The position numbers and the translations under genes were made by a program. 64,000 nt of DNA, from NCBI GenBank assembly GCA_021827205.1, contig JAKAWV010000008.1:1-64000 (forward strand), in the 5' to 3' direction. Below the pieces are notes generated by a model. That model was not told the DNA's origin. It did not search any database and was given only the letters and a program-made list of their open reading frames with translations. Shown here piece by piece: positions 1 through 34,575 of this stretch (positions are counted from its first letter, which is position 1; each line of letters begins with the position of its first letter). The DNA is from Pseudomonadota bacterium (GTDB lineage: Bacteria > Pseudomonadota > Gammaproteobacteria > Xanthomonadales > Rhodanobacteraceae).

Positions 1-125
1 GACGCGCCTGCCGACCACGCGCGATCGGGACATCGGCACCCTGCTGCCCACGACCTGGCAGCCGGCGACCTGATCGCACCACGCGCATCTCGCCACCGCG
101 CAAGGTGGCGTGGCCGCACGCTTAC
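1..125 (+). mobile_element. Right-end remnant of a probable IS66-family insertion sequence (C-terminal transposase tail plus terminal IR)
   Basis: Frame from nt 2 reads TRLPTTRDRDIGTLLPTTWQPAT* (stop 71-73), resembling IS66 TnpC C-termini. The element appears to end at ...GGCGTGGCCGCACGCTTAC (121-125); IS66 ends typically read GTAAGCG on the other strand. Truncated by the window edge. Confidence 0.4.
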
Positions 126-224
126 GATCCAACCGTCGGAAGTACTGGCTGCGTCGTCTTCAGGGGACTCAACCCACAACAAAAGCCAAAGCAACAACCG
201 CTCCGCACTTGACAGCGAAAGTCA

Positions 225-290
225 TATCAACGTTTGAATTCACCAGACACGCGCCGCAGGCGCGAGGTCCGGTGGAATGGTGGGTTGGGC
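225..290 (-). repeat. attC-like cassette recombination site (after NTF2-like cassette)
   Basis: On -: R'' GCCCAAC (284-290) matches RYYYAAC; central imperfect palindrome CGCGCCTGCGGCGCG; L'-like AATTCAAAC followed by R' GTTGATA (225-231). Lies just after the terminal TAA of the cassette ORF. Confidence 0.6.
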
Positions 291-303
291 ATCGCCGCGT
301 TCA

Positions 304-675
304 TTAGAGTGCGACAGGCAGATCCATGATGTAGCGCCACGCTCCATCTGAACCCCTTCTCGCTAGCTTAGAGGAGTGCCCCCCGATATCTATCGCATTG
401 CCTGCTCCATCGATGCCCTTAAAGCTTCATTTGGCATGCAGCATAGCCAAGTCATCTTGTTGCACACAGGAAAGCTGAGTAGCTACCAGATCTCCTTGCA
501 AAGTAAGCAGCGCTTTCATTTGCTCTCGAATCTGCTCGTGTCCATTGAGTTGATGTCCGGGAGCCGGGCAAAGAACGGCACTTGTTTCGTATAGGCCCAC
601 CAATCCTTCGAGATCACCGGCGCGGAAAAGCGCGTTGTAATGCTCGTTGAGGTTCTTTGGGTCAGTAACTTTCAC
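304..675 (-). pseudogene. NTF2-like / DUF4440 (SnoaL-type) cassette protein with in-frame premature TGA
   Basis: GTG start at 675 behind AGGAGA; reads VKVTDPKNLNEHYNALFRAGDLEGLVGLYE...DLAMLHAK then TGA (427-429). The same frame continues SFKGIDGAGNAIDIGGHSSKLARRGSDGAWRYIMDLPVAL to TAA at 304-306, the expected family C-terminus. Confidence 0.75.
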
Positions 676-720
676 GTGCGTCTCCTTTTGTGTGTCTGCA
701 ATGGTAGAACTGGAATCGCG

Positions 721-778
721 GCCCAACGCTTGAGGTAACCGGCGCAAACCCGCGCAGCGGGTGAGCATCCAGTTGACC
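721..778 (-). repeat. attC-like cassette recombination site (after membrane-protein cassette)
   Basis: On -: GGTCAAC (R''-like, 772-778), central hairpin ACCCGCTGCGCGGGT, L' GGTTACCTCAAGC, R' GTTGGGC (721-727), a perfect GTTRRRY. Confidence 0.75.
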
Positions 779-781
779 GAG

Positions 782-1144
782 TTAGGGGCCGCGCCGCCGA
801 CGCCGCCACTGCTTAAACTCATGCGCGTAGCCATACCACTGGCCCGCTGCTCTTTGACGAGCGACCGCGGCAGCCATAACTACCGCTACGACAAAAAGTA
901 TGGCCCAAAACGCGAGGTCGCCCGACGATGCGCCTTGAATGTAAGCACGCGCAAACATTGCCGCTGCGAACAGCGCTGGCGTGACCTTACTAGCGAAGTA
1001 GACAGCGCGACCACGCGGTGTGGTTGTTACGGTTGTAGCATCTGGCTGGCGCACCAACCAGAAGGTGGACGCGAGCTTTACCGCCACCAAGAAAACGGCA
1101 GCGCCCAACAGGGCTGATTGAACTTGTGACGAGTCCATAAGCAT
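782..1144 (-). CDS. Small membrane protein, cassette-borne, unknown function
   Basis: ORF 782..1186; plausible start MLMDSS at 1144. Several hydrophobic segments; flanked by attC-like sites. Confidence 0.6.
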   Translation of the reverse strand: MLMDSSQVQSALLGAAVFLVAVKLASTFWLVRQPDATTVTTTPRGRAVYFASKVTPALFAAAMFARAYIQGASSGDLAFWAILFVVAVVMAAAVARQRAAGQWYGYAHEFKQWRRRRRGP

Positions 1145-1180
1145 GCGCTCTTTTTTGTCTTGCGAGACAGCCAGTCGAGG

Positions 1181-1243
1181 CGTCAACGTAAAGTTGAGGG
1201 GCGCGCCGCTTTTGGCGCGTCCCGCTCGAACGCCATGTTCGAC
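1181..1243 (-). repeat. attC-like cassette recombination site (after methyltransferase cassette)
   Basis: On -: GTCGAAC (1237-1243), GTTCGAGC, palindromic core GGACGCGCCAAAAGCGGCGCGCC, CTCAAC, GTTGACG (1181-1187). The core is identical to that of the MAPEG-cassette attC. Confidence 0.65.
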
Positions 1244-1249
1244 AGAGGG

Positions 1250-1912
1250 TCACTTGACGAGTTCGAGGACAAGATTGATTCCGAGGGGCTGCGTCGATTC
1301 GAGGCGAAGCGGAGTGGCTGTGACGAGTTCTTCGAACTGCTCCCTGTTGTACGCGCCGCTCCGCTGGATCATGAAAGCGATTCCCATCATGAGTGCGGTG
1401 CCGCCCTTGAGCCCAATCTTGGACGCGTAGGTCTTCCAGTCCCGGCCGGTGGCATCGTGATTCACATCGACGATGAGCACTCTGCCGCCCGGTCTGAGCA
1501 CCCGATACATCTCGCACAAGACCGCGACGGGGTTCTGGAAGTTCTTCACCGCCCATGAGCAGAAGACCAGATCGAAGGCGTCGCCAGCGAAGGGCATCGA
1601 GCCTGCGTCAGCCTCCAGGAAGGTGACCTCGACCCGCTCGCGTGTCGCATTGGCGCGCGCGATCTCGACCAAGTCCGCGCTGATGTCCAGACCCGTGACG
1701 CCGAACGTGCCGAGCTTCGCGAGCGCAGTACAGAAGTACCCGGGCCCGGTCGCGACGTCGAGGACCGAACCGCCTGCTGGCGTTCGGGATGCTGCGAACT
1801 CTGCGTATGATCCCAGATCACGCATCCGATAAAGCCGTGAGAACTCGTCGTACCGCTGCGCCTTCTTGCCGTCGACGCTGAGACTCCTCGATCTACGGGC
1901 ATGCTTCAGCAT
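1250..1912 (-). CDS. Class I SAM-dependent methyltransferase (UbiE-like), gene cassette
   Basis: Motif I VLDVATGPGYF, LDISADLVEIAR, FDLVFCSWAVKNF, YRVLRPGGRVLIVDV; ORF sits directly between attC-like sites. Confidence 0.85.
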   Translation of the reverse strand: MLKHARRSRSLSVDGKKAQRYDEFSRLYRMRDLGSYAEFAASRTPAGGSVLDVATGPGYFCTALAKLGTFGVTGLDISADLVEIARANATRERVEVTFLEADAGSMPFAGDAFDLVFCSWAVKNFQNPVAVLCEMYRVLRPGGRVLIVDVNHDATGRDWKTYASKIGLKGGTALMMGIAFMIQRSGAYNREQFEELVTATPLRLESTQPLGINLVLELVK

Positions 1913-1956
1913 GTACTGATCTCCAACTTGGCAGCCGGATGAACGGCGCAGGTTCG

Positions 1957-2010
1957 GTCGAACGCAGAGCTAACCGGCGCGCCGCTTTTGGCGCGTCCGG
2001 GTTGAGCGAG
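1957..2010 (-). repeat. 3' part of an attC-like site (L''-loop-L'-R') separated from its R'' by an IS
   Basis: On -: CTCAACCCGGACGCGCCAAAAGCGGCGCGCCGGTTAGCTCTGCGTTCGAC; R'' GTCTAAC lies 600 nt away at 2615-2621 next to the MAPEG stop codon. Confidence 0.65.
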
Positions 2011-2614
2011 TAAAAAGAGACTTCCTCCCCTTTCGGCCTCGAGGGCCATGATGGTTGCTACAACCGTCAGCAGAAGAGGAAGTCTCCATGAGCACTATAA
2101 CCATCGGCGTGGATTTGGCGAAGAGCGTGTTTTCGGTGTGTGCGGTGGATGACGCCGGACACGTGCAGCGGCGGCAGGATCTTGGGCGTGAGGCGTTTGC
2201 GCTGTGGCTCGCGCAGGTGCCGGCGGGCACCGTGGTAGCGATGGAGGCCTGCAGCGGCGCGCACCACTGGGCGCGGCGCTGTCTGGAGGTCGGGCTGCAG
2301 CCGCGCTTGATAGCAGCGCAGTTCGTGACGCCGTTCCGCAAGAGCCGCACGCTGAAGAACGACCGCAACGACGCCGAGGCGATCGCCACGGCGGCGCGAC
2401 AGGGCAACATGCGCTTTGTGCCAATCAAGTCGGTCGAGCAACAGGCGCGGCTGGCATGGCATCGGGTGCGCGAGGGCTACAAGACCGAATCGCTGGCGAT
2501 CGGCAATCGCCTGCGCGGCCTGTTGGCCGAGTTCGGCATCGTCATCGCCAACAGCGACGTGGCGTTGCGGCGGGCACTGGCCGACCTGGATCAACACGCT
2601 GCATTGCCGGGCGT
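2011..2614 (+). mobile_element. Truncated IS110/IS1111-family element inserted in an attC
   Basis: Contains the N-terminal half of an IS110-type transposase; flanked by the two halves of one attC-like site. Inverted repeat GAGACTTCCTC / GAGGAAGTCTC near its left end (2017-2082). Exact boundaries uncertain. Confidence 0.7.
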
Positions 2615-2633
2615 GTTAGACCTCACCCGATGA
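2088..2633 (+). pseudogene. IS110-family transposase, C-terminally truncated
   Basis: MSTITIGVDLAKSVFSVCAVDD...MEACSGAHHWAR...FRKSRTLKNDRNDAEAIATAARQG matches the DEDD N-terminal domain. The C-terminal Tnp_20-type domain is absent; the ORF runs into attC sequence. Confidence 0.85.
2615..2621 (-). repeat. attC R'' half-site (GTCTAAC) of the MAPEG cassette
   Basis: Two bases after the MAPEG TGA on -: TGAGGTCTAACAC; perfect RYYYAAC, abutting the IS110 remnant. Confidence 0.6.
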
Positions 2634-3042
2634 CGCCACGCAACAATGCGAGCGCCCAATAAATAGCGATTGAAACCTGTATGGCGAACGCCAAGAACCG
2701 AACATTTACAGCCATAGCGCTTAATGACGCTAAATGAACGGACGACTGCACCAAGCGTGCGCCCAGAAAAAAAAGTGCAAGAGGATCCGTAACTGAGGTT
2801 TGGCCAGTGAGAAGGGCAGCCAAGAGCAGGCCACCGAAAACTGGAAAGCTCTCGACACAATTGGCATGTGCTCGTGCAAGGCGCTGCATGAAAGGCGAGA
2901 GATTGGCGTTGTCGGGCTTGAACTGACGCGGATCGAATTTACTGACTACGACCAACCTGACTCTGGCTAGCTCCATCGTGAGCAGGAGCAGCAACGTCCA
3001 GGCTATGAAGCCGACTAGTACGATGGCGCTGATGCTGTGCAT
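2623..3042 (-). CDS. MAPEG family membrane protein, first cassette
   Basis: MHSISAIVLVGFIAWTLLLLLTMELARVRLVV...RLARAHANCVESFPVFGGLLLAA...RLVQSSVHL typical of MAPEG. Confidence 0.85.
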   Translation of the reverse strand: MHSISAIVLVGFIAWTLLLLLTMELARVRLVVVSKFDPRQFKPDNANLSPFMQRLARAHANCVESFPVFGGLLLAALLTGQTSVTDPLALFFLGARLVQSSVHLASLSAMAVNVRFLAFAIQVSIAIYWALALLRGVIG

Positions 3043-3099
3043 AAAAATCCCCCTTTTGGCCGTGTGGGGTCAACTACTATTCGGTTGTGAAGTGAAGCC

Positions 3100-3232
3100 T
3101 GGTTCCACCGCCTAATTCGTGTGTGCGGACGTCGGTGATCAGAGCCGCCCTACATGAATCACGTCTTCCAGCCATCGCGCCGCCTAAAACCGCCGCCTAA
3201 TCTCGCAGCCTTCTTCCCGCGCAGCGATCACG
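3100..3232. promoter_or_regulatory. Candidate attI / integrase promoter region
   Basis: Between the divergent intI and first cassette; three copies of CCGCCTAA (TTAGGCGG on -) at 3108-3115, 3180-3187 and 3193-3200, resembling GTTAGGC-type core sites. Confidence 0.4.
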
Positions 3233-4271
3233 ATGCCGGCATCCTCTCACCCCGAATTCGCACCAGCAAGTGCCCCCGGCACCGCGCCGCCGCCACGCCT
3301 GCTTAATGTGATGCGTGCCCGCATGTGCCGCGAAGCCAATCCCTGTTCGGGACGTCGACTCAGTTTGTCCCTGCGCACCGAGGAGGCCTATGTGGGCTGG
3401 GTGCGGCGTTTCATCCGGGCGCATGACCGGCGCCACCCGCGCACGCTGGGCGCACGCGTGGTCGAGGCATTTCTCACCCTGTTGGCAACACGCGATCGGG
3501 TTTCAGCCTCCACGCAGAACCAGGCGCTGTCAGCGCTGCTGTTTCTGTATCGCGAAGTGCTGGCGGTTGATCTGCCGTGGCTGGACAACGTGGTGCGCGC
3601 GAAGCGACCGCAGCGTTTGCCGACGGTGTTGTCACAGGACGAGGCACGACGCTTGCTGGCAGCGATGGATGGACGTTCGTGGCTGATCGCCAGCCTGCTT
3701 TTACGGTACCGGCATGCGCCTGATGGTCGAGGCCAGCGCGCATATGCGATGCGTTGAAGCGCATCGCGTGCGCCGGGCGAGGAGGAGGCAGGAAGCCGAC
3801 TGGAGATGCGCTTCAGGGATGAATCTCGAGTCGCGGCTTCGGCCACCTCGGCCACGCGTCTGCCGCATGCGCTGGCGCGCGAATACCCGGGCGCCGCGCG
3901 CGAGTGGGTGTGGCAGTACGCGTTCCCGGCCCGCACGCGCAGCATCGATCCGCGCAGCGGCGTGGAGCGCCGGCATCACCTGGATGAAACCGTGCTGCAG
4001 CGCGCGGTGAAGCGGGCGGTGCGGCGCAGCGGCCTTGGCAAGCCCGCGACCTGCCACACGCTGCGACATTCGTTTGCCACGCATCTGATCGAGGCCGGTT
4101 CGGATATCCGCACGGTCCATGAGCTTCTGGTCACAGTGACGTCAAGGCCACACCGCCGTTCCTGCATCCCTGCGCTCGCGGCATTCGTACATCCATGTAC
4201 AGCAGATCTACACCCATGTCCGCAACCGCGGCGCCGGCGGCGTGCGCAGCCCGCTGGATCGGGTGGGCTGA
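3233..4271 (+). pseudogene. intI: Integron integrase IntI (tyrosine recombinase), inactivated by frameshifts
   Basis: LRTEEAYVGWVRRFIRAHDRRHPR... then, in other frames, [62 protein letters not shown]...[26 protein letters not shown] and [22 protein letters not shown]. The frame changes near 3704-3720, again before about 3800, and near 4131. Confidence 0.9.
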
Positions 4272-4289: not shown

Positions 4290-5387
<1,098 letters not shown>

Positions 5388-32298: not shown

Positions 32299-32379
32299 TC
32301 CATGCCTTCAGAAGGACGCCACGGCAGCCGGTGAAGGTGTCCGGCGTTCGGTGATCAGCCTAGCCGTGGCGATTGCAGT

Positions 32380-33120: not shown

Positions 33121-34314
33121 TCAGCCGCCGCGCCGGATCGGCACCACGTCCGCACCGATGCGCAGGCCGTCCAGGTAGTCGCTCCATGCCTGCATCATGG
33201 CCTTGCGCTCGGGCAGGTGCGAAGCCCTGTTGTACGCCGCGCGCACTTGATTGCGTTCCGCGTGCGCAAGCTGGCGCTCGATGGCGTCGGGTGAATAGCC
33301 CAGCTCGTGCAGCAGCGTGGATGCCGTGCTGCGGAAGCCGTGGCCCGTCGCGGTCTGGCCGTCATAGCCCAGCGTGCGCAGCGCGAGCGTGACTGCATTC
33401 TCCGACATGGGCTTCTGCGCGGATCGCTGCGACGTGAACACGTACTGCCCGCGTCCGGTCAGCGGGTGCAGTTCGCGCAGGATGGCAACGGCTTGGGTAC
33501 TCAGCGGCACGATGTGCGGCGCGCGCATCTTCATCTTGTCGGCGGGGATGCTCCACGTGCCTGCGTCCAGGTCGATTTCCTGCCACTCCGCATGCCGCAG
33601 TTCGCCCGGTCGCACGAATACCAGCGGCGCGAGCTTCAGGGCGCAGGCCACTACAAAGCCGCCGCCGTAGCCGTGCAGTGCGCGCAGCAGTTCGCCCAGC
33701 TTGCGCGGGTCTGTGACGGCAGCGTGGTGTGTGACCTTGGGCGACTTGATCGCACCGCGCAGTGCAGCCACGGGGTCATGCGTGGCGCGCAGGGTTGCGA
33801 TGCCGTGCCGGAACACGGCGGAGATTTTCGCGCGCAGGCGGCGTGCGGTTTCCAGCAACTCGCGGTGTTCCAGGTCTTGCAGGATCGCCAGCACGTCGGC
33901 GGGGACAATCGAACCGATCGGCTTCGCGCCCAGCGCAGGCAACGCATGCTGTTCCAGCAGCCAGCGGTCCTTGGTCGCGGTGGCTTCGGATACATCGCGG
34001 CGTGACAGCCACTCGCGTGCCACGGCCTCGAAGGTTAGGGCGTTGGCCTGCTTGGTGGCCTTGCGTTCGGCGCTGGGGTCGATGCCCTCGGCAATCAGTT
34101 TGCGGGCTGCCTCGCGGCGCTCGCGGGCCAACAGCAGCGACACGTCGGGATACACGCCAAGGCTCAGCATCTTGTCCTTGCCGCCGAAGCCGTAGCGCAT
34201 GCGCCAGTACCGGGCACCCGTCGGATGCACCTCGATGCTCAGCCCGCGTTCGTCGGTGACACGGTAGAGCTTCGCACGCGGGCGCAGGTTCTTGAGCTTG
34301 GTATCCGACAGCAT
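33121..34314 (-). CDS. int: Tyrosine-type integrase (P4-like, DUF4102 N-terminus)
   Basis: MLSDTKLKNLRPRAKLYRVTDERGLSIEVHPTGARYWRMRYGFGGKDKMLSLGVYPDVSLLLARERR...TGHGFRSTASTLLHELGYSPDAIERQLAHAERNQVRAAYNRA. Confidence 0.96.
   Translation of the reverse strand: MLSDTKLKNLRPRAKLYRVTDERGLSIEVHPTGARYWRMRYGFGGKDKMLSLGVYPDVSLLLARERREAARKLIAEGIDPSAERKATKQANALTFEAVAREWLSRRDVSEATATKDRWLLEQHALPALGAKPIGSIVPADVLAILQDLEHRELLETARRLRAKISAVFRHGIATLRATHDPVAALRGAIKSPKVTHHAAVTDPRKLGELLRALHGYGGGFVVACALKLAPLVFVRPGELRHAEWQEIDLDAGTWSIPADKMKMRAPHIVPLSTQAVAILRELHPLTGRGQYVFTSQRSAQKPMSENAVTLALRTLGYDGQTATGHGFRSTASTLLHELGYSPDAIERQLAHAERNQVRAAYNRASHLPERKAMMQAWSDYLDGLRIGADVVPIRRGG

Positions 34315-34490: not shown

Positions 34491-34575
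<85 letters not shown>

Follow-up and report, generated by a model that had tools for sequence, protein, structure and literature searches.

Integrons with an inactivated integrase gene (intI) and a stable cassette array are common in Xanthomonas (Colombi et al. 2025, PMC12444791; PMC8618304), and both papers cite Gillings et al. 2005 for dead-intI integrons of this genus. The locus described here resembles them in belonging to the order Xanthomonadales, in the type of its attC sites, in an intI with frameshifts, stops, and deletions, in its stabilized array, and in the additional attC clusters found elsewhere in the genome. It differs in position, since it lies at ribBA and not at ilvD, so that its intI is not downstream of ilvD, and in that the genome has four platforms with intI remnants. 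It also differs in that the intI, judged by its sequence, is a chimera of two integrase lineages carrying a repeat insert, and PMC12444791 makes no mention of gene conversion. The locus is ordinary in kind, the uncommon detail being a chimera whose insert is common to a second dead integron of the genome, and it shows that integrase loss, known as a repeated event in Xanthomonas, has also occurred in another genus of the order.

The stretch analyzed, hereafter the window, comprises bases 1–64,000 of a 129,731-base contig (C13) from a 3.04-Mb genome assembled in 43 contigs (99.25% complete). The genus is apparently placed near Rhodanobacter, and 12 further genomes of the same genus were searched (G numbers below; contigs cited without one belong to the source genome). 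We coined the labels W-type for intI sequences like the ends of the window intI and that of G011, and C-type for those like contig C32 and G003. The relatives of C-type intI are found in Rhodanobacter and other Rhodanobacteraceae, and W-type segments resemble genes of Lysobacteraceae. With a probability of about 0.92, we read the locus as a sedentary chromosomal integron that lost its integrase, the decay of intI including recombination with a second lineage, and in which an insertion sequence (IS) split one attC.

The sequence-only reading had proposed attC sites at 225–290, 721–778, 1181–1243, and 1957–2010, and had named a lack of covariance matches there as grounds for abandoning the idea. 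A strict consensus-and-fold attC finder returned many sites in other arrays and only one overlong match in the window (167–290), and therefore a covariance model (R1) was used, trained on 33 attCs from other Xanthomonadales arrays and none from the window. Scanning the 64 kb with R1 gave only four matches at E ≤ 5, all on the minus strand and one at each proposed site; the remaining 60 kb, which served as a negative control, was free of matches. An Rfam search at the gathering threshold gave no attC family match.

The attC sites trail single-ORF cassettes that share one orientation (minus strand) and are divergent from intI. Cassette 4 has an 83-residue NTF2/SnoaL-like ORF (427–678; PF12680, 5e-7) and an attC at 226–290 (19.3 bits, E 0.0073), and cassette 2 a class I SAM methyltransferase of 220 residues (1250–1912; PF08241, 8.7e-25) with an attC at 1182–1243 (21.3 bits, E 0.002). 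The ORF of cassette 1, which lies nearest to intI, encodes a MAPEG family protein of 139 residues (2623–3042; PF01124, 9e-17). Pfam thus bears out three of the four cassette contents named earlier; the fourth, a small putative membrane protein of 118 residues in cassette 3 (782–1138), is present as an ORF without a match in Pfam, and its attC is at 721–787 (32.6 bits, E 1.6e-6). The attC of cassette 1 gave only a partial match (1964–2012, model positions 8–53, E 0.12), because an IS110-type fragment has severed its R'' arm: the 3' part (R', L', hairpin, and L'') is found at 1957–2007, and the R'' box (GTCTAAC on the minus strand) at 2615–2621, beyond the IS. The attI core (GTTGACC, minus strand) lies at 3066–3072. 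W-type platforms of other genomes become homologous to the window from this point (~3066–3073), at a GTTRRRY-like box, and the equivalent place reads GTTAGAC in G011 and GTTGGGC in G005.

The fragment that splits the cassette 1 attC, between cassettes 1 and 2 (2008–2614, plus strand), was overlooked in the sequence-only reading, as were the attI core and the contig end. It is the N-terminal half of a transposase of the IS110/IS1111 group (NF033542, 6e-46), covering positions 1–173 of 343 and and this half-length fragment scores 157 bits against a cut-off of 140. It separates the R'' box of the MAPEG cassette attC from the L'' box and hairpin of that site. Elements that insert into attC sites are known as the IS1111-attC group (Tetu and Holmes 2008; Post and Hall 2009, as cited in PMC11187229). 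The window element shares with this group the IS110/IS1111-type transposase and a constant insertion point in attC; unlike the group it is truncated, and we liken it by these group traits and not to named members. Four IS110-type copies in G001 start at the identical point of other attCs, and five of the seven copies inspected, window included, follow a TTGAAC-type box of an attC. One such copy in the G001 array adjoins CCTAACCATTC, on the R'' side, at its far end. The fuller G001 copies have inverted repeats near their ends, with AAGAGACTTCCCG at both (identified by eye); the window copy lacks the right end. An array at G001 C2:410–420 kb (L172 6300–16,000), from a near-complete relative, carries several attC-inserted IS110-type copies, one of them interrupted by another IS, and has an attI with only ~100 bp of intI.

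The recombinase gene occupies 3233–4271 on the plus strand and matches the integron integrase profile TIGR02249 in two parts (E 1.1e-39 and 1.4e-41, NCBIfam). The two halves score 136.7 and 142.9 bits for IntI versus ≤50 for XerC/D, and with neighbors in frame included the TIGR02249 score is 277 bits against a cut-off of 265. A grouping with XerC/D or phage integrases, together with the lack of the insert specific to IntI, had been put forward as speaking against an integron; the scores point to IntI, and a 23-residue stretch is present at ~3862–3947, which we take to be that insert.

Lesions were called against intact and other intI genes. The frameshifts seen earlier are real and are accompanied by a deletion, a replacement, and an insertion: there is an extra T near 3700, a deletion of ~78 bp at 3725, and a one-base deletion near 4128. 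At ~3325–3351, 27 bp have been inserted in frame, and at 4155–4204, ahead of the catalytic tyrosine motif, the alignment shows an insertion of ~50 bp in common with G011; an exact 15-mer of the latter occurs only in the window and G011 copies among the loci compared. The replacement (3726–3861) puts a ~125-bp stretch containing a dispersed palindromic repeat in place of ~110 bp of coding sequence, and is common to the intI genes of C32 and G005, the loss being about the same in the window and C32 copies. Sequencing error cannot explain these lesions, because several large ones are common to other genomes.

The repeat within the insert consists of GATGCGTTGAAGCGCATC plus flanks and is found in 8 of the 13 genomes of the genus. 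It measures ~115 bp (in the window at 3748–3765), with further copies on C17, C37, and C32 and at loci L115–L129, and is tandem in G001. At 154 kb of C32 (L024, 1400–1690), a copy lies between two copies of the first ~75 bases of an accB-like gene, as if the gene start had been duplicated together with the repeat.

Comparison of the window intI with the two lineages gives different affinities along its length. The first segment (3233–3510) is W-type, with 89–91% identity to G011 and 53% to C32; the middle (3511–3725) is C-type, with 89–90% identity to the C32 intI and 70–73% to G011. The insert (3726–3861) is found only in C32 (92–97%; 97% over 103 bp) and G005 (94–95%), and the segment after it (3862–4140) is again W-type (94% to G011, 67% to C32). 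Among ~90 intI loci, the best matches switch segment by segment in the same way (G011, C32, G005/C32, and G011), and none of 20,000 permutations over 254 informative sites reproduced the pattern. In a tree of the C-part, window and G011 are joined with support of 100/97, and a grouping of window with C32 is rejected (p-AU 8e-39). When only the 210-bp middle is used, the tree places the window with C32 at weak support (48/43), and the AU test does not reject the alternative of window with G011 (p-AU 0.147). Since the AU test on the middle is indecisive, the mosaic rests on the informative sites, the shared insert, and the C-part tree.

Two features could make such a mosaic an artifact of assembly or binning that fused two intI copies: the assembly is fragmented (43 contigs), and one genome holds two similar intI genes. 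However, the segments are 90–97% and not 100% identical to C32, so that they are not collapsed C32 reads, and the insert recurs in G005 in a third context, with W-type sequence on its left and C-type sequence on its right. We regard an artifact as highly improbable. Entry of the repeat into the same target site of both intI genes on separate occasions is scarcely more plausible and was already disfavored. The repeat is indeed dispersed in the genus, but what the two copies lack is approximately the same (110 bp of intI), and they have both junctions in common; moreover, the common sequence extends well beyond the repeat core, C-type similarity reaching ~200 bp upstream of the insert.

We infer that the recombination between the two lineages was a gene conversion. 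The middle of the G011 intI is nearest to Rehaibacterium (Lysobacteraceae) and its ends are nearest to Lysobacteraceae; because middle and ends agree, it was the window gene, and not that of G011, that was overwritten. The G005 gene is a mosaic of another make-up, in which W-type sequence precedes the insert and C-type sequence follows it. The present-day C32 copy was not the donor, being 90% identical in the middle and 97% in the insert; the exchange may therefore date to an ancestor or have happened in another species. The C-type lineage from which the middle came is represented by an intact intI in G003 (MAG record JAJYMF010000118.1; 86%), open over its full length, and by the intact intI of Rhodanobacter sp. 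L36 (L034; 81%), which matches that of G003 over 318 of 320 residues. One idea, which we put forward tentatively and at somewhat less than even odds, is that the loss of integron function is transmissible: an inactive intI allele with the repeat insert would have converted part of the intI of another integron, so that co-resident integrons share a lesion and did not decay independently. If a lesion did move between integrases in this way, mapping integron loss on trees could not treat each inactivation as an independent event. A literature search, incomplete in its coverage of subscription journals, found nothing on point about mosaic or gene-converted integron integrase genes or about recombination between integrase pseudogenes; we claim no priority.

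On its right, the locus is flanked by ribBA (4290–5387, minus strand; NF010626, 1.6e-154). The integron site is empty in the two closest relatives, G001 and G010 (93% at ribBA). The region to the left of ribBA is continuous in G001, and its left side corresponds to C19:758–5188 of the source genome, near a contig end; hence, the integron most likely sits between the C19 and ribBA flanks. The contig lacks the left end of the array, and the 20 kb to the left that the sequence-only reading proposed to scan does not exist in this assembly, since the contig starts inside a multicopy element: bases 1–125 (plus strand) recur without mismatch at the start of contigs C16 and C23 (first 124 bases), and this repetition is why the contig ends at window position 1. 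The element has copies at 84–89% in G001 and G007 and is probably an assembly-breaking insertion sequence. Its reading frame raised the suspicion of IS66, which was unsupported on checking.

A rearranged form of the window locus is found on contig C68 of G007 (L174, L184), which carries the left flank of the window and the junction between the MAPEG cassette and the IS (99/99 bases), including the R'' box of cassette 1. There, intI is fused to an IS110 at a GTTCG microhomology, with a further IS in the junction. C68 was considered as the ribBA locus of G007 itself and rejected, the ribBA of G007 being on C122 at 80% and without the window flank. The C68 flank is 93% identical to C19, and the contig may be misbinned.

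Four integron platforms are present in the assembled genome, with attC sites near each. The IntI profile matches are the window copy, the insert-split gene of C32, and an N-terminal remnant at C11:113,356; the fourth platform (C3:89,493) retains attI and ~94 bp of intI. The remaining weak-scoring matches are presumably XerC/D or phage integrases. None of the IntI profile matches in this 99.25%-complete assembly is an intact intI, so no source of integrase in trans is visible. The second integron (L017 8128–9164 and 9349–12,960 on C32) has a broken C-type intI and attCs between cassettes of unassigned function. At the remnant on C11 (L018 3943–5533), ~77 codons of intI lie beside an apparent rplU start; that on C3 spans L167 5390–6749. 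Isolated attC matches occur on C2, C10, and C22.

The sequence-only reading held that the array is frozen in cis because the integrase is non-functional. These data support that view and widen it to supply in trans, inactivity being read from sequence. Could a functional IntI elsewhere in the cell still be moving the cassettes? Three attC sites retain their folding and core boxes, and G007 C68 has the 3' end of the MAPEG cassette (99/99 bases) next to different cassettes, a layout compatible with movement or transfer of cassettes. The same junction, however, includes the IS scar, and the left flank is common to C68, which argues for descent of the whole locus and not for cassette exchange. Given also the count of zero intact intI genes among the IntI matches, we consider a still dynamic array very unlikely.

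Our reading of a dead sedentary integron suggests the following history. The MAPEG, methyltransferase, membrane protein, and NTF2-like cassettes would have entered successively at the attI beside the plus-strand intI. Recombination with the second integrase lineage may then have swapped the middle of intI and imported the disabling palindromic-repeat insert, the tyrosine region would have gained the insertion also seen in G011, and small indels and the ~78-bp deletion would have destroyed the frame. An attC-targeting IS110/IS1111-group element would have split the cassette 1 attC, so that this cassette would be unable to excise as a regular unit even with integrase restored. Because the assembly holds no intact intI, cassettes 1–4 would now pass on as ordinary genes, and the locus has most likely ceased to function as an integron; the unsplit attCs could in principle still be used by an incoming IntI. 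As many as four dead platforms occur in a single genome, and the lesions form a series whose relative order can be worked out.

Elsewhere in the window, the segment 31,888–34,575 combines an int-alpA RNA (32,305–32,370), a phage-type integrase (33,121–34,314), and a tRNA-Leu (34,491–34,575), and is probably a tRNA-inserted island.
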